From Klebsiella sp. RHBSTW-00484 (GTDB lineage Bacteria > Pseudomonadota > Gammaproteobacteria > Enterobacterales > Enterobacteriaceae): a DNA stretch of 64,000 bases. This document shows, in pieces, positions 52,840-64,000 of this stretch. The notes under the pieces are model-generated. The model did not search any database, was not told where the DNA came from, and saw only the letters and a program-made list of their open reading frames with translations. The stretch covers positions 1,364,001-1,428,000 of the forward strand of contig NZ_CP055481.1 in assembly GCF_013705725.1 (NCBI RefSeq). Reading direction: 5' to 3'. A program made the position numbers and the translations under genes. Each line of letters opens with the position of its first letter. Within the stretch, counting starts at the first letter, position 1.

Positions 52840-55314
52840 ATGTCAGCAGAACAAAAAATAAAAATAAACGTAATCCTCTCTCAGATACTTTTCTTCTGCT
52901 GCACTTCTATGGCTTGCGCTTCCTCGGATGTAGAATTCAATACCGACGTACTGGATGCCGCCGACCGCGGCAATATTGATTTAACCCGTTTTGCTACCGA
53001 TAACTATGTTCCTCCAGGCGAATATCTCTTAGACATTAAAATTAATGGCCAGGCAGTGGGGCAGCAAAAAGTTCGTTATCTGGCCTCCAAAGACGAGAAA
53101 CATACCCAAGCCTGTATTAACGGCGAAATTCTCTCAAGATTAGCGTTGAAAGAGGAAGCACAACAGAAGGTTGCACAGCCGTTTGCGGATTGCTATGACC
53201 TGCTGAGTCTTCCTGGCGCCACGTTGAGTAACTATGCCGGGGTGCTGGACATCACCGTCCCGCAGGCATGGATGAAATACAATGATCCAAACTGGGTGCC
53301 ACCAGAGCGCTGGGACCAGGGAATTGGTGGGTTTCTGCTCGACTACAGCCTGACCGGGCAATATACCCGCCAGCTTGATATGCACGAAGATTACAGCACC
53401 TTGAGCGGCTATGGTCAGACCGGGGTCAACCTCGGTGGCTGGCGTTTGCGTGGTGAATATCAGACCAGCTATTACAGCTCGACGCACCAGTTCGATTTCG
53501 ACATGAATCAGGTCTACGCCTATCGTCCGCTGCCGATGCTGGCGGCAAAATTGACGGCAGGGGAGATCTACCTCGATTCTCAGGTCTTCGACACCGTACG
53601 TTTTACCGGGCTTAATCTCGCCAGCGATGAGCGCCAATTGCCGCCGAACTTGCAAGGTTATGCGCCAGAAATTCGCGGTCTGGCCAAGACTAACGCCAAA
53701 GTGACGGTGAAGCAGAGCGGGCGCATTATTTATGAAACCACGGTCCCTGCCGGGCCGTTTAATATCCAGGACTTACGTAGTTCTGTGCGCGGTACGCTGG
53801 ATGTACAGGTTGAAGAGCAGGATGGTTCAATCTCCACTTTCCAGGTCAACACCGCCAATATTCCTTATCTCACGCGTCCGGGCTATGTGCGCTACAACGT
53901 GGCGATCGGTGCGCCATCCCGCTACAGCCATAAAATTCAGGGACCGGGATTCGCTTCTGGCGACTTCTCCTGGGGGATAAGCAACGCCTGGTCGCTATAT
54001 GGTGGGCTACAAAGCGCGGGGGCTGAATATACTGCGGTTTCCGCTGGTATTGGTCGTGATTTAAGCGTTCTTGGCGCGCTCTCGCTGGATGCCACAGAAT
54101 CTTATAGTCAGCAGTCGAATAAGAAACGACTTAAAGGCACCTCATTTAAGCTGAGCTATGCGAAAACCTTTGACGAATATAACAGTTCAATTACCTTCGC
54201 CGGATATCGCTTTTCTCAGGAAGATTTCCGCTCTTTCTCGCAATATCTCAACGAGCGTTATGAGGGATATGACAGCCTTGGTCGCGAAAAAGAAGTTTAT
54301 ACCATTACCGGGAATAAAACGTTCTGGGCCGATGAGCCGGGCAAGGCGACCACTGTATTCCTGACCTATACCCACCAGAATTACTGGAATCGCAGCAGTC
54401 AGGATCGCTACGGCATCTCTTTAGGGCGCTCGTTTAACGTCGGTAATATTCGCGGGATCACCACCAATATTTCAGCATATCGTTCTGATTATGAAGGACG
54501 TAAAGACGACTCGATCGCTATTTCGCTTTCTGTTCCGGTTGGCGATAGCAAATGGAGTGGTCTGGACGTGCAGACCAATAACGGCAAAACCAGCCCGATG
54601 CTCTCATATACCGATAGCAGCGACTACAACAACCTGTGGCGACTGCGTGCAGGGGCGAGCTAGAGCGGTTATGCCAACGTCGACGGCTATTATCAGCGCC
54701 GCTCGCAGTATGCCGAAATCAACAGCAACGCCAGCTATCAGCAGGATCACTATATCTCTCTGAGCAGCACTCTGCGCGGCGGCTTTACCGCCACCCGACA
54801 TGGCGCGGCGATCCACAACAGCGGCGCGACGCTCAACACCGCTCGCGTGATGGTGAATACCAACGGCATCGGCGACGTCCCGCTAAATGACGGGAAATCA
54901 AGAACTAACAATTTCGGTATTGCCGTTATTCCGGACATCGTGAGCTACAACAGCTTTGATACCCGGGTTGATGTCGATGCGATGTCGGAATCGATTGAAC
55001 CGGCAAAAGCCATCAGCACCGCCACGCTGACCGAAGGCGCTATCGGCTATCAGACCTTTGGCATGGCGAAGGGCGAGAAGATGATGGGCATTATTCGCCT
55101 GGCTGACGGTACCTATCCTCCGTTTGGCGCCGAGGTTATTAACGGCGATGGCGTTAGCGTGTCGATGATTATGGAAGGCGGACAGGGATGGCTGGCGGGC
55201 GTGAACCCACAAGAGGCGCTAAGCGTGATGTGGAGCGGGAAAAAGCAGTGTCAGATAACCATTCCGCCATCTATAGAGCGTCGTTCGACAACCGCGCTAT
55301 TGCCGTGTAAATGA
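52840..55314 (+). pseudogene. Fimbrial usher interrupted by an in-frame amber codon
   Basis: The frame runs 607 codons, meets TAG at 54661-54663, and continues in the same frame for 216 more codons to a TGA at 55312. The whole gives 824 codons, the normal usher length. The first part holds a signal region, the N-terminal domain (EFNTDVLDAADRGNIDLTRF), most of the 24-strand barrel and the plug; the second holds SGYANVDGYYQ, NTNGIGDVPL and the C-terminal domains with CQITIPPS. Without readthrough the product lacks the last barrel strands and the C-terminal domains and should be inactive. A sequencing error or an amber suppressor could restore it. Confidence 0.88.
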
Positions 55315-55339
55315 CAGTGACAGTAATAAAAGGCCAAAA

Positions 55340-56083
55340 ATGAGCATGACAAGTAACAAACTCTGCTGGATGGGCGCCCTGATGCTGACAGCGGTAAGCA
55401 GTACCGCTCAGGCGGGCGTTTCACTGGATCGCACTCGCTTGATTATCACCGGTAAAGATAGCTCGGCAAGCGCGAATTTGACCAACACCAGCCCGGATAT
55501 TCCGTTTCTGGCGCAGTCCTGGGTCGAGGACAGCAAAGGCAATAAAATCACCTCTCCGCTGGTGGTGCTGCCGCCTTTGCAGCGAATTAACGGCGGGCAA
55601 AAAGGCGTCGCGCGCGTGACCAAGACTGATGGCATCAATCAGCTGCCGCAGGATCGTGAAAGCCTGTTTTATTTAAGCGTGCGCGAAATTCCACCTAAGC
55701 CGGATAAAGCGAATGTCCTGCAATTAGCGATGCAGTCGCGGATTAAATTATTTTTCCGCCCAACCGCCATTATCCCAAAAAGCAAAAGCGAGATTTGGCA
55801 GGATCAGGTCGTCTTTCAAAAAAGCGGCAATAAAATGAGCGCGCAAAACCCGACGCCTTATTACATCACCATTATTAGCCTGTCGCGGACGAAGGGTGAA
55901 AAAATAACGAAATTTCCGGGAATTATGATTGCACCGAAATCCAGTCTGGAGTTCAACGTAACAGATGGCGGAATTAGTGATTTTTCCATGATGTACGTGA
56001 ATGACTATGGCGGCCATCCGGAACTGAAATATCGCTGTGCGGGAAATACCTGTAAAGCTCTGCCGCCGTCGCAGCAAGGGTAA
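55340..56083 (+). CDS. Periplasmic fimbrial chaperone (PapD family)
   Basis: 247 residues with a signal peptide ending AQAG. PapD signatures are SLDRTRLIITG, NTSPDIPFLAQSWVED, RESLFYLSVREIPPKP and RIKLFFRP. The short F1-G1 loop fits the FGS class. It donates a strand to subunits and delivers them to the usher. Confidence 0.92.
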   Translation: MSMTSNKLCWMGALMLTAVSSTAQAGVSLDRTRLIITGKDSSASANLTNTSPDIPFLAQSWVEDSKGNKITSPLVVLPPLQRINGGQKGVARVTKTDGINQLPQDRESLFYLSVREIPPKPDKANVLQLAMQSRIKLFFRPTAIIPKSKSEIWQDQVVFQKSGNKMSAQNPTPYYITIISLSRTKGEKITKFPGIMIAPKSSLEFNVTDGGISDFSMMYVNDYGGHPELKYRCAGNTCKALPPSQQG

Positions 56084-56097
56084 TTGAGAGGAACCTG

Positions 56098-56730
56098 ATG
56101 ATGAAAACGCGTTTATCGCTATTCGCACTGTTTGTATTCGGTCTCAGCATGCCAGCGCTGGCCGACGCTGATATTCCGCTACAGCCGCAGCACTATAACC
56201 AGGATCATCAGGGGGAAGATGGCGGTAACGTGATATTTCAGGGCTCCGTTTACGCCTCGCCGTGCGTCCTTGCCCCGCAGAGCCGTCTGCAAATCATCGA
56301 ACTGGGTGAAATTAGCGCCCGCCGTTTTCATCAGGCGGGCGATCGTAGCCAACCGGTACTGGTACGCGTTGAACTGCGAGATTGCCTGAAAGGGGCGTCA
56401 CAGGCGCGAGACAGCATCGCATCAAGGACTACGGGAAATAGCAAGCACCTCTATACCACTGGCGAGCAAGCGGTGCAGATGACGTTTATCGGCGAGTCGG
56501 ACGAGAATAATCGTCAACTGTTACGCCTGACTGGCAGCACCTCCGGAGCCGGTATTCGTCTGCTGGATATCAAAGAGCGCGCGCTGGATATCAATCAAAC
56601 CCAGCCGCCGTTTATTGTGAAAACCGGCGACAGCAGCCTGACGTTTATTGCGGTACTGGAGTCTACCGGTCGAAACGTGACCGCCGGTAATTTTAGCGGA
56701 CTGCTGCGTTTAAAAATGGAGTATCTGTAA
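56098..56730 (+). CDS. Minor fimbrial subunit
   Basis: 210 residues with a signal peptide (LSLFALFVFGLSMPALAD). The pilin domain has YASPCVLAP and ELRDCLKG cysteines and a C-terminal NFSGLLRLKMEYL. An insertion between strands (DSIASRTTGNSKHL) makes it longer than simple pilins. Probably an adaptor in the tip. Confidence 0.85.
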   Translation: MMKTRLSLFALFVFGLSMPALADADIPLQPQHYNQDHQGEDGGNVIFQGSVYASPCVLAPQSRLQIIELGEISARRFHQAGDRSQPVLVRVELRDCLKGASQARDSIASRTTGNSKHLYTTGEQAVQMTFIGESDENNRQLLRLTGSTSGAGIRLLDIKERALDINQTQPPFIVKTGDSSLTFIAVLESTGRNVTAGNFSGLLRLKMEYL

Positions 56731-57782
56731 TGGCTGCTATGGTTATCTGGCGTAAAACCCGCGTCGCTATTTTGCTATGCGGTGGCCTGCTGTCCTGGGA
56801 AACCGCAGCGGCAGTTGAAGGGGAAATTACGCCGGTTGGCGGACCTAAAATGTATAATATTGACGTCGCCAACCAGGATATTACCAACAACAGTATCGGG
56901 GCGACCATTCCTTATACTTTTGCATTAGGCGGCCAATACTCTGGCGTAGCCAGCTGCACTATCCCCATGGAAAATCAGGCCATCTATTATTCTGCTACTG
57001 CCTCGTTACTTCAGCAGGGTAGTTCGGCGGGATATTTAAAGCTCAATGATTACATGGATGTAAAAATTGAAATTTATATCCGTGGTCAGCGCATGGCCTA
57101 TCTTCCGGTCCCTTTTAATAATGAGTCAAACGATGCATTTCAGAACAAATGCGTGCCACCAACCACTCAGTTTAATAACTTTGAATCCGGCGCTCAGGGG
57201 CGGGTGACGTTTATGATCACCAAGCCGATTGTTAACGGCGTAAACCTGTTGGGTACCGAAATAGCTAAACTTTACGGTCGCCTGGGCAATTATAGCGCCG
57301 GGATGGGGACCACGCCAATGTCGATTGTCTCTATTAACTCTGGAGTTATTACCGTTCCGGACAAATGTATCGTCAACTCCGGCTCGCCGATCACTGTTGA
57401 TTTTAACACTATCCCCAGTTCTGGTTCACTGCTTAACGGCAACAACTATAGCCAGTCCGTGCCGATTCAGGTGAAGTGTGAAGGGGGAAGTTTTGCGACC
57501 GGTAACTTGAATATTCGCCTGGGAATTCAGCAGGCTAATACCGCCAGTTTTAATAGCGATTATTTAGGTACCACCGGCGCCGTCGACCGCTCCAACCTTG
57601 GCATTATCTTGAAGGATTCCGGCGGCAATTTAGTGGCCGCGAATAAGTTTTATGACGTCCCGGGTTTTAATAATAACCAGGGAACCTGGAATCTGACCGC
57701 CGCACCGATTGCCAATGCCGGGACCAACGTACTTGAAGGGGATTTCCAGGCATCGGCCACCGTGGTCGCTGAGTTTCAGTAA
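56730..57782 (+). CDS. Two-domain tip adhesin
   Basis: 350 residues with a signal segment (VAILLCGGLLSWETAAA). Residues about 25-200 form an N-terminal receptor-binding-like domain (QYSGVASCTIPMENQAIYYS, NKCVPPTTQFNN); residues about 215-350 form a pilin domain (ITVPDKCIVNSGSPITVDFN, ending ASATVVAEFQ). This two-domain layout is that of FimH-type adhesins; the receptor is unknown. The start overlaps the previous stop (TAATG). Confidence 0.85.
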   Translation: MAAMVIWRKTRVAILLCGGLLSWETAAAVEGEITPVGGPKMYNIDVANQDITNNSIGATIPYTFALGGQYSGVASCTIPMENQAIYYSATASLLQQGSSAGYLKLNDYMDVKIEIYIRGQRMAYLPVPFNNESNDAFQNKCVPPTTQFNNFESGAQGRVTFMITKPIVNGVNLLGTEIAKLYGRLGNYSAGMGTTPMSIVSINSGVITVPDKCIVNSGSPITVDFNTIPSSGSLLNGNNYSQSVPIQVKCEGGSFATGNLNIRLGIQQANTASFNSDYLGTTGAVDRSNLGIILKDSGGNLVAANKFYDVPGFNNNQGTWNLTAAPIANAGTNVLEGDFQASATVVAEFQ

Positions 57783-57791
57783 GGGGACAGC

Positions 57792-58340
57792 ATGCGTCAA
57801 TTAATCGCATCAATGATACTCATATGTTCGCTACCGGCAGTCACCCCGGCGTATGCCATCGGAGAGCTGATCGGCGGCGATTTAAACTTCAAGGGAACCG
57901 TTGTTGCCCAGGGCTGCAGCATTGTCCCTTCGTCAAAAAACATCGCCGTGGATTTTGGCCAAATTTCAACCCGCTCGCTGTATGCCGAAGGAAAATCGCT
58001 GCCCAAAGCGTTTGTTATTGAGCTACAGGATTGCAGTACCGATGTCTTTAATTCCGTCACTGTGACCTTTAGCGGGACGGAAAATGCCAATATGAGCGAT
58101 CGCCTGGCGATTACGCCGGTAGCGCCCAATTCCGCCAGCGGGATTGGTATTGGCTTTGAAGAGAGTAACGGTACGGCTATTTCACTGAATACGCCGACGA
58201 CCGCGGTTGCCATTTCCGATGCCACCATGCAGTTAAATTTTAAAGCTTTTGTGGAAGGGGAACCGGATGCCTTGAGTAACGAAACCTTGCAAACCGGTGC
58301 CTTTCAGGCCACGGCAAATTACACCCTAAACTACCAGTAG
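57792..58340 (+). CDS. Minor fimbrial subunit
   Basis: 182 residues with a signal peptide ending TPAYA. Pilin features are AQGCSIVPSSKNIAVDFGQI, ELQDCSTDVF and the C-terminal TANYTLNYQ. Probably a tip or adaptor subunit. Confidence 0.88.
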   Translation: MRQLIASMILICSLPAVTPAYAIGELIGGDLNFKGTVVAQGCSIVPSSKNIAVDFGQISTRSLYAEGKSLPKAFVIELQDCSTDVFNSVTVTFSGTENANMSDRLAITPVAPNSASGIGIGFEESNGTAISLNTPTTAVAISDATMQLNFKAFVEGEPDALSNETLQTGAFQATANYTLNYQ

Positions 58341-58362: not shown

Positions 58363-59034
58363 ATGAGCCGTCATTTCTTTCTCTACGATAAAAATATTTT
58401 TTTCTCTGAAGGTGTGCGTTCCGCAGTTGCCGATCTTACTGCCCGCGAGCCGGACTGCTCTTTCTCAAAGATCGAACATTTTTCGCAGCTGATTAGCACG
58501 CTGCGTTCACCAAAAAAGAGAAATGAGCTGCATTGGATCCTCTGTGATGTCGACAGCTTACCGGATGAACGCTTTAATGCGTTATATACCATTAAAGAAC
58601 ATTATTGCCGGGAAAATCAGCAACTGGTTATTCTGTTAGATAGCAATAATCTCGCTCTCTTTTTTGCGCTGCATTCGCTTCTCCCGGAAGCCAGTTGGTT
58701 ATTAAAGAATGAATCACTGAGCAACTTTTCTAGCTTTATCGAAGATTCTCAGGCATTAGTAGCAAAAAAAATATTCTTTAGCCGTTCGTTGATTAACTAC
58801 ACACGGCAAAAATGGTTGGCAAGAGATTTTAATAACAGCATCTCCAGCGATGACTGGTGGTTAATGGAAGAAATATTCAAAGGAAAGTCGCTTTCACAAA
58901 TTTCCTCTGAGCAACAAATTGATGTTCGTCGCTTAAGCCGCAGTAAACGAGGGCTGATGAAAAAATTAAACGCCAAAAATAACGTTGAGCTGTTTAATAT
59001 TTTCAAGTGTATCGTCGCCACGCCTTGCATATAG
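58363..59034 (+). CDS. LuxR-like transcriptional regulator of the fimbrial/peptide locus
   Basis: 223 residues. The N-terminal half resembles a degenerate receiver domain (LYDKNIFFSEGVRSAVADL, WILCDVDSLPDERF) without a full acidic pocket. The C-terminal part has a LuxR-type helix-turn-helix (DDWWLMEEIFKGKSLSQISS, QQIDVRRLSRSKRGLMKKLN). It closes the fimbrial operon and lies 100 bases before the peptide gene, so it could control either. Confidence 0.75.
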   Translation: MSRHFFLYDKNIFFSEGVRSAVADLTAREPDCSFSKIEHFSQLISTLRSPKKRNELHWILCDVDSLPDERFNALYTIKEHYCRENQQLVILLDSNNLALFFALHSLLPEASWLLKNESLSNFSSFIEDSQALVAKKIFFSRSLINYTRQKWLARDFNNSISSDDWWLMEEIFKGKSLSQISSEQQIDVRRLSRSKRGLMKKLNAKNNVELFNIFKCIVATPCI

Positions 59035-59137: not shown

Positions 59138-59347
59138 ATGAAAAAATTAAGCATGATTGAAGCAGCGGGTATTATTGGCGGGACCTGTAAGGAAACTTGC
59201 ACCAGTTCTTACGAAACTGTGGTTGTTGGCGGCGTTTCTTCTTGTAAAGAAGTGACCACCTGCACGGATAAGCACGGCAACTCAACCGTTAGCATGAAAG
59301 ATGCTGCTGATGGTATGTGCGTAGTACCGAACCGCATCCGCCAGTAA
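59138..59347 (+). CDS. Double-glycine-leader cysteine-rich peptide (microcin/bacteriocin-like)
   Basis: 69 residues. The leader MKKLSMIEAAGIIGG matches the LSxxEhxxIxGG consensus exactly, so cleavage after Gly15 by a C39 peptidase is expected. The mature peptide has 54 residues with five cysteines (CKETC, SSCKEV, TTCTD, MCVV), enough for two disulfides. An AAGGA site precedes the ATG. The DsbA-like and C39 exporter genes follow downstream, so it is the likely exported substrate. No immunity gene is obvious. It may be a class II microcin or a signalling peptide. Confidence 0.82.
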   Translation: MKKLSMIEAAGIIGGTCKETCTSSYETVVVGGVSSCKEVTTCTDKHGNSTVSMKDAADGMCVVPNRIRQ

Positions 59348-59389
59348 TTTCTGCAGTAGTACATGGAGGGGTAACCCTCCATGTACCCG

Positions 59390-59580
59390 TCATACTTCAA
59401 GTTGCATGCGCGTTGGCTTTGTTACTCGGCTCATCCATGAGCCTCGCCCTGGCGGGCCGCCGTTATACGGCGTTCAAATCTGTTCCGGACAGATTTGTCG
59501 CTCACCCCAGTCACTTGACTTGCGTAAGCTCCTGGGGACTCTCTGCGTCGCCGCCTTCTCGCAACTCGAATTATTTAGGG
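59390..59580. repeat. ERIC element with internal insertion
   Basis: Both ERIC ends are present (GTCATACTTCAAGTTGCATG and GCAACTCGAATTATTTAGGG) with the core GCTCACCCCAGTCACTTGAC. Compared with the copy at 2410-2540 it carries about 70 extra bases (roughly 59431-59500), a known type of ERIC insertion. It separates the peptide gene from the rest of the export operon. Confidence 0.85.
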
Positions 59581-59617
59581 TATATTTCTACGCCTTTTTC
59601 GCGAGCCTGGTATCGAA

Positions 59618-60286
59618 ATGAAAATAAAACCTATTACCGCTGTTGGCTACACGTTTCTGGTGGCGTTAATTTCGTCGCTGATGACTGTTCTGTGTTATCA
59701 CATCTTTGTATTTAATACTTTTTCATTAGATAGCAGTAAGCCTTCGGCGCTACGGAAAATTGATGAGACAATTGTTGCCAGTAGCCCAATAAAACATGAG
59801 AGCAGTATTATTGAAGTGCTGTCCTATGGCTGCCACTACTGCGCGTCGAATGAGGAAAATATCGAAAAATTTGCCGCCACCTTACCGGTAGATAGCACCT
59901 TCGAAGTTATCCATATCACCGCTGAAAGAAATGGTCTGGCGGTTTATGCACCGGTTTTTGCGACGCTTGAAGTGATGGGCCTTGAGCGTCAGACGCGCGA
60001 CTCGGCATTTAACGCGGTAATGGTTCGCGGTATTAATTTAGCTGATGATGAAGCGCTGAATACCTGGCTGAAAAAGAACGATATTGATGTGGCGAAATAT
60101 CATCAGGTACGCCAAAGCAAAGCCGTTGCCGAACGGCTGGAATATATGGCGAAAATCACCGAGCTCTATGACATTAACGCGACGCCGTTGTTTATTGTTA
60201 ATAAAAAATACGTCGTGGCGAAGGATCGTCAATTTCCTGAATTTGCCGACTATATGCGCCAGCTGTTAGCTCAGGACAAGGAGTAA
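59618..60286 (+). CDS. DsbA-like thiol-disulfide oxidoreductase
   Basis: 222 residues. One N-terminal membrane anchor (residues about 10-32), then a thioredoxin fold with the active site GCHYC (Cys72 and Cys75), a DsbA-type helical insertion, and the cis-proline in NATPLF (Pro190). It should act in the periplasm and is well placed to form disulfides in the exported cysteine peptide. Confidence 0.87.
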   Translation: MKIKPITAVGYTFLVALISSLMTVLCYHIFVFNTFSLDSSKPSALRKIDETIVASSPIKHESSIIEVLSYGCHYCASNEENIEKFAATLPVDSTFEVIHITAERNGLAVYAPVFATLEVMGLERQTRDSAFNAVMVRGINLADDEALNTWLKKNDIDVAKYHQVRQSKAVAERLEYMAKITELYDINATPLFIVNKKYVVAKDRQFPEFADYMRQLLAQDKE

Positions 60287-60288
60287 GC

Positions 60289-61239
60289 GTGACGCGCTTT
60301 CTGATCGTCTGGGGCGTCTTCAGCGTAAGAAAATGGTCCGCGCAGCTTGCCTGGCGACACCGTCCTTTTACCGGCTACGGGCAAAAGGCGGTGCGGGCAG
60401 TGATGCGTTATACCCCTATGTCGCTGCTGTTGCTAACCGTTCGCGCGCTGTGCACGCTGCGGTTGTTGGGCAGACAATATCGCGGGCGCACCGCCGTGGC
60501 GACGCAGAACTATCGCTGCCTGACCGGTGGCGATGGGCGAGTTGACGCCGCGTGGATCGCAATGCGCCGCCAGTTACTGGAGATGGGCGCGACCTGGGGT
60601 CAGCACTCGACAACGTTGCGCCAGATGCAGGCGTGCACGCAAGAGCTTGATGCGGTGGTTGCGCCACTGGTGGTGCAAAAGACGCCGGTGGTCCTCGCGC
60701 CGCTGCACTGCGTTTCCGATATTTTAGCCGCGATGGTCGGGGCCGGCGTGACGCCGGGCAAAGCCAGCGTGGTGGTCTCATCCAGCGCGGAAAGCTACAC
60801 CGCCGCCAGCCGCGCAATGGGCGGCGTTGCGCTCTCCTACTGCTCCATTCATCAGGATAATACATCGCTGGCCAGCGAGCTGATGGCGCTAATGACTAAC
60901 GTCTCAGAAGGAAGGGAAAACATGATTATTTTCCCCGATATTCCAGCCGATTACACCGTACAGACCCACGAAGCGCAGTCCGGAAAAATAAGCTGTCGGC
61001 TATTTGGCCGTCCGGCAAAACTACACAACGGCGTACAGCGGTTTTCGCGCATCGTGTCGGCGCAGGTGGTTTTTTATCACCTCTATTATCAGCAAGGGAT
61101 AAAAATAAAAATCTATTCCCCGCTGTCGCCAAAAGAGGTCGCGGCAACGTTGCCGACGATTATTGAAAACACCCTGCGTGATTATCCGCAGGATTGGCTT
61201 TTGTGGCACAGCCATTCGCTCTATTTTATTAATCACTGA
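60289..61239 (+). CDS. LpxL-like acyltransferase family protein
   Basis: 316 residues from a GTG at 60289 with an AAGGAG site. It has an N-terminal membrane-proximal helix pattern, then APLHCVSDILAAMVG, GKASVVVSSSAESYTAASRA, and ENMIIFPDIPADY, the spacing seen in LpxL/HtrB-type acyltransferases. The His-X4-acid motif is only partly matched (HCVSD), so activity is uncertain. Position between the thiol oxidoreductase and the exporter suggests it modifies the peptide or a partner. Confidence 0.55.
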   Translation: MTRFLIVWGVFSVRKWSAQLAWRHRPFTGYGQKAVRAVMRYTPMSLLLLTVRALCTLRLLGRQYRGRTAVATQNYRCLTGGDGRVDAAWIAMRRQLLEMGATWGQHSTTLRQMQACTQELDAVVAPLVVQKTPVVLAPLHCVSDILAAMVGAGVTPGKASVVVSSSAESYTAASRAMGGVALSYCSIHQDNTSLASELMALMTNVSEGRENMIIFPDIPADYTVQTHEAQSGKISCRLFGRPAKLHNGVQRFSRIVSAQVVFYHLYYQQGIKIKIYSPLSPKEVAATLPTIIENTLRDYPQDWLLWHSHSLYFINH

Positions 61240-61248
61240 TGTATCAAT

Positions 61249-63360
61249 ATGAAAAATATTATCCCTGATATGGTTTTTCAGGAAGAGACCAATGAGTGTG
61301 GCCTCTCCTGTATTGCGATGCTGGCGCAAACCCAGAATATTCAGTGCTCTCTTCCAGCATTGCGGGAGATTTTCCCGGCGTCCGATCATGGGACATCGTT
61401 GAGTGATTTATCCGTCATCCTGCAACAGGTTGGCATTGCCACTGCTCCAGTGCTCTTCGATCACGACGAGCTACATGGGTTGCCGTTCCCCTCCATTTTG
61501 CACTACGGTGCCAGTCACTATGTCCTGCTGGCGTGGCGCAAGGGGGACTACGTCTGCGTGATGAACCCGGCAATTGGTCAGCAGTGGTTGCCGTTCTCAG
61601 CGTTAAAAAAAGAGATTAGCGGCTATGCGCTGATCCTCGAAGAATCCCCCTCATCAGGAGTCATCCCCAACCCTGTTATCGCCGAAGCGCAGCAGGAGAT
61701 GCCGCGGGCCATGAGCCTGAAGGAGACGGCGGCGGTTCCGGGCATTTACAAGCTGATGCTATTAACCTTCCTGGTGGCGTTAACGCTGTTTTTAATGCCG
61801 ACGATGGTCAGCCGCGCGATTAATCAGGCGTTCTCAGATGCGCAGAATACGGATTTTCCATATCTGTGGTTTATCCTCGCCTTTGTGGTCTCTACGCTGT
61901 TAGCACTGGGCGTCAGGGTGATTAGCGAGCGTTTCATCCGCCGCTTTGTGTTGCTTAATAGCGATATCGGTTTTTCGCGATTGCTGAATAATCCGCTGCG
62001 CTTTTTTGAAAAACGCGCGCCGGGGGATGTTTTCAGCCGCTTTATTGCCTGGCAGAGCGGCATGCTGCAAAAAATTGAGCTGGATAACGGCCTGCGCTCG
62101 GACTGGATTATTTGCGTTATCGCCATCGGCATCATGTTCTGGATCTCCCCGGTGCTGGCGCTGATTTCCGCCGTGGGCATTGTGGTGATGGGGTTAATTA
62201 GCGTCTGGGCGATATTTCGCGACCGCTGGTATACGCAGCAGCTTCAGCTCAAGAGCGCGGTGCTAAATGACTTTTTTATGGAGACCCTTCAGGGGGTATT
62301 AACCATTAAAACCGCCGGGCTGGAAACCCAGCGCAAAGCGCAGTTTGCCCGCCTGTCGCATGACCTTTTTACCTGCCTGCAACGGCAGAAAGTCTATCAA
62401 CAAGTGAAAGACGGGCTGTATCAGCTGACCGGCAGCCTCGAAATGGTAGTTTTTATGCTGGTAGTGCTGCCGCTGGTGCATGCAAAACAGATCTCCCTGG
62501 GCGACTTCTTTGCCTACAGCTTTTTGCGGCAAATTTTTACCTCCTACGTCACGCGGATGTTCTATGCCGTTATCCGTAAGTCGCAACTGCATGTGATTGA
62601 TACCCGCGCACAGGGATTGTTTACGAAGCATGAGCTTGCTTCTCCCCTGATTTCTCCGCTCAGCGGAACAGCGGTTCCGCGACTGGCGTTCGAGCGGGTG
62701 AGCTTTCATTACAACCCGCAAAGGCCAGTATTAAACGCGGTGGACCTCATACTTGAACCTGGCGATCAGATAGCCATTGTCGGCGATTCCGGTGCCGGAA
62801 AAAGCACTTTGCTGCGGCTGATGACCGGGCTTTTTCCCGCACAGCAGGGGCGGATTTTGTTGAACAATGCAGAGGCAAGCGCTCCACAGCTGACGTCGCA
62901 GGTGTGGTTGCAGAGTCAGGAGGACATCCTGTTTAACGCCTCGGTGCTGCAAAACATCACCCTGTTTGACCCGTGGTACAGCGACAGCGAACGTGGGCGC
63001 GTGGAAGCACTTGTCAGCAAAATGGCGCTGGGGCCGGTGGTTCAGGCGCTGCCGGGGGGAATGGAAGCGCTGATTCGCGAGAGCCACTCTGCGCTCTCTT
63101 TAGGCCAGCGCCAGCGGCTGATGCTGGCGAGGGCGCTCTACAGCACCCGACCGATTTTACTGTTCGATGAGCCTACCGCCAATCTTGATGATGAAACCGC
63201 AGAGACGGTGATCGCCGCGCTGTGTCAGCACTGCCGCGAACAGGGCAAGACGCTGATTGTCGTGACCCACAGCGAGCTGATTGTGAACCACTTTGCGCGA
63301 GTATATCGCCTGAACGAAGGCGAGCTGCGCGATATCGGGCAGGGAGCGGCGGGCCAATGA
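61249..63360 (+). CDS. C39-peptidase-containing ABC exporter
   Basis: 703 residues. The N-terminal C39 domain has the oxyanion Gln11 and catalytic Cys17 in FQEETNECGLSC, His90 in GASHYVLL, and Asn106 in VMNPAIG where most family members have Asp. Six membrane segments follow (about residues 170-450). The ATPase has Walker A GDSGAGKST, signature LSLGQRQRL and Walker B ILLFDEPT. It should cleave the double-glycine leader and export the mature peptide. Confidence 0.94.
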   Translation: MKNIIPDMVFQEETNECGLSCIAMLAQTQNIQCSLPALREIFPASDHGTSLSDLSVILQQVGIATAPVLFDHDELHGLPFPSILHYGASHYVLLAWRKGDYVCVMNPAIGQQWLPFSALKKEISGYALILEESPSSGVIPNPVIAEAQQEMPRAMSLKETAAVPGIYKLMLLTFLVALTLFLMPTMVSRAINQAFSDAQNTDFPYLWFILAFVVSTLLALGVRVISERFIRRFVLLNSDIGFSRLLNNPLRFFEKRAPGDVFSRFIAWQSGMLQKIELDNGLRSDWIICVIAIGIMFWISPVLALISAVGIVVMGLISVWAIFRDRWYTQQLQLKSAVLNDFFMETLQGVLTIKTAGLETQRKAQFARLSHDLFTCLQRQKVYQQVKDGLYQLTGSLEMVVFMLVVLPLVHAKQISLGDFFAYSFLRQIFTSYVTRMFYAVIRKSQLHVIDTRAQGLFTKHELASPLISPLSGTAVPRLAFERVSFHYNPQRPVLNAVDLILEPGDQIAIVGDSGAGKSTLLRLMTGLFPAQQGRILLNNAEASAPQLTSQVWLQSQEDILFNASVLQNITLFDPWYSDSERGRVEALVSKMALGPVVQALPGGMEALIRESHSALSLGQRQRLMLARALYSTRPILLFDEPTANLDDETAETVIAALCQHCREQGKTLIVVTHSELIVNHFARVYRLNEGELRDIGQGAAGQ

Positions 63361-64000
63361 TGCGAGGATTATTACGCCAACGCAAAACGTGGCTGTTTGC
63401 GCTGATCGCGATCGTAGCCATCATCGTCGCCGTTCTTTATCAGCGCGCGCTGCCGGCGCAGGCCGAATCGCTCTATACCGTCGCCCTCGATCGTGGAGAT
63501 ATCGAAAAAGTGGTGCTGGCGAGCGGCATCATCAAACCAGCCGTCCAGGTGAGCGTTGGCGCTCAGGTCAGCGGGCAGTTGCGCAAGCTGTTTGTTCGTC
63601 AAGGGGAGCGGGTGCAAAAAGGGCAACTGCTGGCCGAAATCGACCCGACTTTACAGCTTTCAGACTTACGTAACGCCACCGCACAGCTGGCCAGCGCCAG
63701 AGCGCAGAAGTTAGCCTCTGAAGCGACGCTGGTGCAGTACCGCAAAGCGCTGACCCGCGAGCAGACCATGAACCGCGATGGCTCTGGTGTGAACAGCGAC
63801 CTTGAACAGGCGCAGGCGCAATATGCCGCGCAGGTTCAGCAGATTGCGGTCAATGAGGCGCAGATTGTGCAAGCGGAAATGAGCGTGCAGACCGCCAACG
63901 CCAACCTCGGCTATACGCGCATTCTCGCCCCTATGGACGGCGAAGTACTCGGCATTGTCACCCGTGAAGGGCAAACCATCGTATCTTCACAAATTGCGCC
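63357..64000 (+). CDS. MacA/HlyD-like periplasmic adaptor (partial)
   Basis: Starts at the ATG overlapping the exporter stop (ATGA); a second ATG follows directly. An N-terminal membrane segment (TWLFALIAIVAIIVAVLY) is followed by a biotinyl-lipoyl-like barrel (SVGAQVSGQLRKLFVRQGERV) and a long coiled coil (ASARAQKLASEATLVQYRKA). The gene runs off the right edge at residue 214. It should link the exporter to an outer membrane channel. Confidence 0.9.
   Translation, partial: MMRGLLRQRKTWLFALIAIVAIIVAVLYQRALPAQAESLYTVALDRGDIEKVVLASGIIKPAVQVSVGAQVSGQLRKLFVRQGERVQKGQLLAEIDPTLQLSDLRNATAQLASARAQKLASEATLVQYRKALTREQTMNRDGSGVNSDLEQAQAQYAAQVQQIAVNEAQIVQAEMSVQTANANLGYTRILAPMDGEVLGIVTREGQTIVSSQIA

Follow-up and report, generated by a model that had tools for sequence, protein, structure and literature searches.

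An eleven-gene operon in Klebsiella sp. RHBSTW-00484 encodes a small precursor peptide of the DUF4762 family, followed in order by a DsbA-family oxidoreductase, an acyltransferase, a C39 peptidase ABC exporter, a MacA adaptor, a MacB ABC permease, an outer-membrane factor, a ketosynthase, a MaoC-like dehydratase, an acyl carrier protein (ACP) and a ketoreductase. We propose that the product of this operon is probably a secreted, disulfide-bonded, fatty-acylated ribosomal peptide. The operon straddles the end of the stretch of DNA that we analyzed (the window; 64,000 nucleotides, bases 1364001-1428000 of contig 1 in a genome of 6.9 Mb), which holds half of it. The remaining 6.9 kb past position 64000, with the genes for MacB, the outer-membrane factor and four enzymes and carriers of fatty-acid synthesis, was read from stretch L009, the sequence 3' of the window end (window numbering = L009 + 56000). 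The parts, their order, the conserved catalytic residues and the close co-occurrence of peptide and machinery can be read from the sequences. They describe a real, conserved biosynthesis-and-export system that is undescribed as far as our searches reach: DUF4762 occurs in none of the papers of the library of open-licence PMC literature that was searched, and no title or abstract beginning among the matches listed there describes the gene set, a scope that leaves subscription journals mostly outside.

A preliminary description of the window had noted a peptide with a double-glycine leader, a CxxC oxidoreductase, a C39 exporter and a MacA-like adaptor, all of which are present, and had read them as the makings of a disulfide-stabilized, possibly acylated secreted peptide. 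This reading is supported by what lies past position 64000, where both the MacB-like partner and the outer-membrane factor that it had suggested looking for were found, together with an acyl-synthesis set; acylation itself is predicted. The peptide's Pfam family, the continuation of the operon and a repeat in the gap that separates the peptide gene from that of DsbA had been overlooked.

The peptide scores 81.4 bits against PF15959 (DUF4762; E 4.4e-23, cut-off 27) and is therefore a member of this family and not a chance open reading frame. Its 15-residue leader, MKKLSMIEAAGIIGG (59138-59182), ends in the double-glycine sequence IIGG and precedes a mature peptide of 54 residues and net charge 0; the five cysteines are C17, C21, C36, C42 and C61. 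In an alignment of 66 distinct sequences gathered by profile (74 before identical ones were dropped), leader G14 and G15, C36, K45 and G47 are invariant, and C61 (65 of 66), C42 (64), C21 (61) and D44 (59) nearly so. Thinning at 70% identity leaves 37 peptides, every one of which has G14, G15, C36, K45, G47 and C61. In the mature peptide, K-x-G and the greater part of a four-cysteine frame are thus fixed, and the remaining positions vary. K-x-G is also kept in peptides outside the profile set (RKDG in L148, NKDG in L149, DKDG in L179, DKHG in L176, DKYG in L177 and NKFG in one L173 paralogue). A low-confidence structure model (predicted local distance difference test, pLDDT, 66.7) has strands at residues 21-30, 33-43 and 49-56 and places K45 in the turn between the last two; a PDB sequence search with the peptide profile gave no match at E 1.

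The oxidoreductase scores 35.6 bits against the DsbA domain PF01323 (cut-off 25.6) and matches solved DsbA structures by profile at E 3e-20. It has the domain, the CxxC motif and a proline, taken from the TP motif to be the cis-proline, that mark the DsbA family. The acyltransferase has no match in either Pfam or NCBIfam at E 0.001 (at this threshold the Pfam scan covered ten operon proteins, and the eleventh, MacB, was scanned against NCBIfam only), and a PDB sequence search with it returned a single match, at E 0.33. Its predicted fold (mean pLDDT 72.8) matches mycobacterial PatA and Acinetobacter LpxM at sequence identities of only 12-13%, and on this model we assign it to the LPLAT fold only. 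What the preliminary description had called an LpxL-like protein is thus borne out by predicted fold and not by profile.

Catalytic residues are intact in every aligned row, and the Cys and His of the C39 peptidase are conserved. The dehydratase scores 22.9 bits against PF01575, below the cut-off of 27, and the fatty-acid genes of the operon include no enoyl reductase. At 709 bits the permease falls below the MacB equivalog cut-off of 966 and is MacB-like, not E. coli MacB itself; the outer-membrane factor exceeds the NodT cut-off (218 versus 210 bits). Together with the MacA adaptor, these two make up a MacAB-type tripartite pump. Intergenic gaps 3' of the DsbA gene are at most 17 bases, with most genes overlapping or nearly abutting, so that an immunity gene would have no room within the operon. 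The earlier remark that none was visible holds for this range; the flanks were not tested for one.

Distribution of the peptide and its machinery

The peptide gene is present in 12 of 60 genomes of relatives (its own included) and in 7 of the 19 other genomes of the genus. Across 392 genomes of the family, DUF4762 was found in 41, the acyltransferase in 47 and both in 40. The sole peptide-only genome, G355, has a contig edge about 100 bases 3' of the peptide gene. Four of the seven acyltransferase-only genomes (Rahnella G077 and G417; G293 and G366) encode diverged peptides of the family, recognized with a profile that we built, and two others, G307 and G310, encode a double-glycine peptide of different sequence 5' of MacA; G326 has only an apparent decayed remnant. 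In G310, two small glycine-rich proteins that have leaders of the GA/AG type and by eye resemble class II bacteriocins are encoded in tandem about 8 kb 5' of the operon (L149 464-1290, reverse-complement numbering).

Scanning 84,980 species genomes located the acyltransferase gene at 32 loci in named Enterobacterales; the scan relied on two short patterns, which makes this count a lower bound. The run of genes that begins with the acyltransferase and ends with ACP is present at all 32, the peptide at 31, a ketoreductase above threshold at 31 and DsbA at 29, with some genes counted in two pieces in L081, L084, L092, L094 and L097; the lone locus without a peptide, L089, comes from a stretch that begins inside the acyltransferase gene. 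Ten of 394 genomes sampled from the order match, own included, two of them outside the family, and a class sample of 350 genomes gave no match besides the window's own genome. Within these samples the system belongs to the Enterobacterales, with carriers that include Klebsiella, Enterobacter, Serratia and Providencia as well as plasmids of E. coli and Salmonella.

In Rahnella, where the acyltransferase is 38-47% identical, the fatty-acid genes still accompany the remaining operon. Gene order is rearranged in L130, L131 and L179, and on the Serratia plasmid and in G307 and G310 the ketosynthase, dehydratase, ACP and ketoreductase genes precede those of the acyltransferase and the C39 exporter. 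Two outliers from outside the family, G039 and G505, keep a double-glycine peptide or peptides, the acyltransferase, C39, MacA and MacB (G505 also an outer-membrane factor), and the 14 and 20 kb that were fetched show neither DsbA nor fatty-acid genes; fatty-acid genes elsewhere in these genomes were not searched for. We take this set to be the core, with a dedicated acyl supply and DsbA as probable additions of the Enterobacteriaceae-type operon. It provides the best evidence that the acyltransferase serves the peptide. Unlinked DUF4762-like peptides are found at L035, L138, L141, L143 and L161, in genomes with the operon elsewhere, two of them close together in both L035 and L161; one operon may export several peptides.

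Among 72,556 plasmid records, 14 carry the acyltransferase (ten from E. coli, two from Salmonella, one each from Chimaeribacter and Serratia), and all five of these that were read have the fatty-acid set. On the E. coli plasmid of locus L176 the peptide gene is found on the opposite strand, 4 kb farther downstream, and its product retains DKHG and four cysteines. Searching the plasmids with the window peptide gave no match; the plasmid peptide was needed, and that of L176 returned 12 records (two pairs equal in length and probably duplicates), which are exactly the acyltransferase-bearing E. coli and Salmonella ones. Window DNA for the acyltransferase and the C39 exporter likewise gave no match in E. 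coli genomes, the plasmid versions having diverged too far. A search of 5,426 E. coli genomes with the plasmid operon, which needs roughly 85% identity and may miss more diverged copies, found the operon (at least 80% query coverage) in nine; the peptide was also found in nine, the same nine plasmid records. Operon and peptide lie about 3 to 60 kb apart on these plasmids and so co-occur though non-adjacent. Two E. coli chromosomes carry the ketosynthase-end, dehydratase, ACP and ketoreductase part alone (NZ_CP128926.1 727896-729901 and NZ_CP178694.1 1219710-1221711), about 91% identical to the plasmid copy; one adjoins an IS3 transposase, and both strains also carry the full plasmid operon.

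The presence of DsbA goes with the number of cysteines in the peptide, a pattern that we regard as suggestive. At 62 loci with a peptide, 55 combine DsbA with at least four cysteines and seven lack DsbA and have at most two, with no mixed case. This count leaves out L089, L132, L150 (from the same genome as L132), L175 and L178, which have no readable peptide in the fetched stretch, and L097, which has DsbA and six cysteines and an acyltransferase in short pieces. On the acyltransferase tree, DsbA presence and cysteine number each change twice. A claim of statistical tracking was rejected: the 55/0/0/7 table is clean, but there are too few independent changes. Transposase-like open reading frames (by eye) adjoin a DsbA fragment (L177 7291-8558) on the Salmonella plasmid pSalMiami.

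Other features of the locus

Feature coordinates are collected in Table 1. The LuxR-type regulator scores just below the PF00196 cut-off (20.7 versus 23.5 bits, E 3e-4) and stands 5' of the peptide at 20 of the 32 named loci. The 270-base gap before the DsbA gene holds an RNA hairpin and a dispersed repeat. The hairpin, GTACATGGAGGG-GTAA-CCCTCCATGTAC, has apparent counterparts in the same gap at all 15 loci that were folded, with arms that are altered yet complementary (least clear in L070 and L034); it may allow the peptide to be made in excess. The repeat has 65 matching pieces in the genome, its own copy counted and many being parts of one copy, and its ends are imperfectly inverted (TACCC...GGGTA). 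We rejected a place for it in the system: in L024, the closest relative, just 74 bases separate the matched reading frames. The repeat splits the peptide gene from the other operon genes and could alter expression. A repeat with similar ends occupies the same gap at an uncultured Cedecea locus (L072).

A fimbrial cluster (52840-58340; part of an usher, a chaperone and several pilin-like proteins, from translations only) ends just 5' of the regulator. Directly downstream of the operon, on the opposite strand, is an HD-domain gene (L009 14940-16106); most of the remaining Klebsiella loci have it too, L164 being an exception, as do several further carriers of the operon.

Table 1. Positions of the operon genes and associated features in window numbering.
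Feature	Position	Strand	Basis or remark
LuxR-type regulator (GerE-like C-terminus), directly 5' of peptide gene	58363-59034	+	PF00196
Precursor peptide, DUF4762, 69 aa	59138-59347	+	Pfam profile match
Lys45 codon in C-T-D-K-H-G, proposed acylation site	59270-59272	+	invariance in aligned peptides
Terminator/attenuator-like RNA hairpin, 3' of peptide gene	59359-59386	+	
Dispersed repeat, about 205 bp, peptide-DsbA gap	59380-59584	.	not part of the system
DsbA-family oxidoreductase; CHYC, conserved TP, N-terminal hydrophobic stretch (by eye)	59618-60286	+	Pfam, profile match
Acyltransferase, LpxM/PatA (LPLAT) fold, predicted; invariant H140-x3-D144, D217, E293	60289-61239	+	
C39 peptidase ABC exporter; C17, H90, Walker A K518	61249-63360	+	Pfam, NCBIfam
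MacA/HlyD-type periplasmic adaptor	63360-64000 (gene runs to 64517)	+	Pfam HlyD families
MacB	64517-66460		beyond window
NodT-type outer-membrane factor	66457-67854		beyond window
Ketosynthase	67841-69094		beyond window
MaoC-like dehydratase	69091-69897		beyond window
ACP	69915-70166		beyond window
Ketoreductase	70168-70905		beyond window

Proposed maturation and competing explanations

We propose a route in six steps. The DUF4762 precursor would be translated with its double-glycine leader. A particular acyl chain would be built on the dedicated ACP by the ketosynthase, ketoreductase and MaoC-like dehydratase; with no enoyl reductase in the operon, this chain would stay hydroxylated or unsaturated, or a housekeeping enzyme would finish it. 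At the inner membrane, the LPLAT-fold enzyme would then transfer the acyl group from ACP to the peptide, where the invariant DKxG-loop lysine is the most likely acceptor. The C39 exporter would cut off the leader and move the peptide into the periplasm, the dedicated DsbA would form the disulfides of the conserved four-cysteine frame, and MacA-MacB with the outer-membrane factor would expel the finished peptide from the periplasm. We infer everything from the second step onward, including which residue accepts the acyl group, in what order the steps occur and what the peptide does. The peptide is likely to be acylated, probably on the DKxG lysine.

MacAB pumps take their cargo from the periplasm. 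The sole adaptor in the operon is the MacA that adjoins MacB, and a two-step export would therefore be expected, with C39 delivering the leaderless peptide to DsbA in the periplasm and MacAB with the outer-membrane factor completing release. Alternatively, export may occur in one step through C39, MacA and the outer-membrane factor.

Several observations weigh against the proposed product. The profile-gathered peptide set favors conserved columns, and the invariance of K45 is therefore partly selected for; the second L173 paralogue has NHFG, without K-x-G, and the L172 peptide lacks any such motif. Both structure models are weak, at mean pLDDT values of 66.7 for the peptide and 72.8 for the acyltransferase. 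The latter has no match to the lipid A acyltransferase profile PF03279 (Lip_A_acyltrans) at E 0.001, and among three distant homologues scanned only that of L172 matches it, below cut-off at E 0.016. Its motif is HX3D, unlike the HX4D/E of LpxL. The link between DsbA and cysteine number comes down to two tree changes, or one to two independent pairs, and is not significant; in addition, one of the 55 DsbA loci (Salmonella L177) has a DsbA fragment only (46.9 bits), and the peptides of five of the seven DsbA-less loci were chosen by eye from lists of open reading frames. The E. coli plasmid carriers belong to few lineages, so that nine carriers are not nine independent events. Finally, the preliminary description had held that a peptide gene missing where the exporter is conserved would refute it, and one of the 47 acyltransferase-positive family genomes (G326) and, outside that sample, the related Chimaeribacter plasmid do keep exporter and fatty-acid genes without a recognizable peptide or DsbA.

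An antibacterial lipopeptide is somewhat more likely than a surface coat or signal. The same maturation route could nonetheless yield a surface-attached lipopeptide that acts as a coat or adhesion modulator, as dispersin/CexE does, or a signal; we give this a little less than an even chance, and its probability overlaps with that of the product proposed above. It would fit an operon without an internal immunity gene and with a LuxR-type regulator upstream, and the Aat system sends an acylated small protein to the surface through a composite machine with its own acyltransferase (PMC7943197). The patchy distribution, plasmid carriage and paralogous, diverging peptides look more like those of competition factors.

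The acyltransferase and fatty-acid genes might instead protect the producer, by remodeling its lipid A or phospholipids against an unacylated disulfide-bonded microcin that MacAB and the outer-membrane factor export. LpxM, a lipid A acyltransferase, is among the closest folds, and self-protection of this kind would also suit the missing internal immunity gene. We consider it unlikely: a mature window peptide of net charge 0 is a poor fit with the usual lipid A defense against cationic peptides, the lysine never changes among peptides that differ in most other positions, and a single enzyme would have to guard against quite different peptides, some genomes having extra unlinked ones beside an operon elsewhere. 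We also doubt that the peptide is an ordinary class II microcin-like product, cut and disulfide-bonded only, with co-transcribed fatty-acid genes that make an unrelated lipid. Its double-glycine leader and C39 exporter are those of class II microcins, but the fatty-acid genes stay linked across deep divergence, in Rahnella and in the rearranged loci alike, and keep their catalytic residues throughout. It is very improbable that the fatty-acid genes and ACP make a lipid or polyene as the chief product, which MacAB would transport and the peptide would carry: ketosynthase, ketoreductase and dehydratase without enoyl reductase do recall aryl-polyene type clusters, but G039 and G505 keep the peptide, acyltransferase, C39, MacA and MacB with no fatty-acid gene in the fetched stretch.

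Returning to a secreted, disulfide-bonded lipopeptide, we see an even chance that the operon represents a new class of ribosomal lipopeptides, in which each operon has its own small fatty-acid synthase and a lipid-A-acyltransferase-fold enzyme acylates the invariant loop lysine of a disulfide-stapled peptide, followed by C39 cleavage, DsbA action and MacAB release. Next to Aat, it would be a second system that acylates and then secretes, assembled independently and spread across Enterobacterales and plasmids. If so, common bacteria would make a ribosomal peptide that receives its lipid from an enzyme of the LPLAT fold, supplied with acyl groups by dedicated genes, and DUF4762, a domain of unknown function, would gain a concrete role. 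The model makes a testable prediction, an acyl group on Lys45, and could offer a two-step periplasmic export route for double-glycine peptides and a new peptide-lipidation tool in E. coli.

Relation to known systems

The closest folds to the acyltransferase belong to enzymes with other substrates: PatA acylates a mycobacterial glycolipid and LpxM acylates lipid A, and the operon enzyme is distant from both in sequence. Acylation of RTX toxins by HlyC-type enzymes resembles the proposed route in that it is ACP-dependent, targets an internal lysine and precedes type I export. HlyC differs in being GNAT-like, in drawing on the housekeeping ACP and in acting on a large protein without a double-glycine leader.

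With class II microcins the system shares a short peptide with a double-glycine leader, a C39 ABC exporter and Enterobacterales hosts. It differs in having no adjacent cognate immunity protein within the operon (one may lie in the flanks or elsewhere), in a single MacA-type adaptor with its own MacB, in DsbA, the acyltransferase and the fatty-acid genes, and in a peptide of the DUF4762 family. The main text of a class II microcin survey (PMC9746304) never mentions acyl carrier, DsbA, MacB or fatty acid. In selidamides and nostolysamides, GNAT-family enzymes acylate lysine or ornithine side chains of ribosomal peptides (PMC13060382). A fatty acyl group on such a side chain is demonstrated there and predicted here; the enzyme here has an LPLAT fold, its operon also encodes a dedicated ACP, ketosynthase, dehydratase and ketoreductase, and none of the ten operon proteins scanned by Pfam matches a GNAT family at E 0.001.

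Aat (AatPABCD), which exports dispersin/CexE (Icke et al., 2021; PMC7943197), is likewise a composite exporter with its own acyltransferase for a small secreted protein, plasmid-borne in some hosts. In Aat, CexE takes the Sec route and an Lnt-like C-N hydrolase acyltransferase acylates its N-terminal glycine, whereas the Klebsiella operon combines a double-glycine leader and C39 exporter with an enzyme of predicted LPLAT fold, DsbA, MacAB and a dedicated fatty-acid set. We file the system as neither class II microcin, Aat nor selidamide; Aat is the nearest in working principle, to acylate and then secrete, with different parts.

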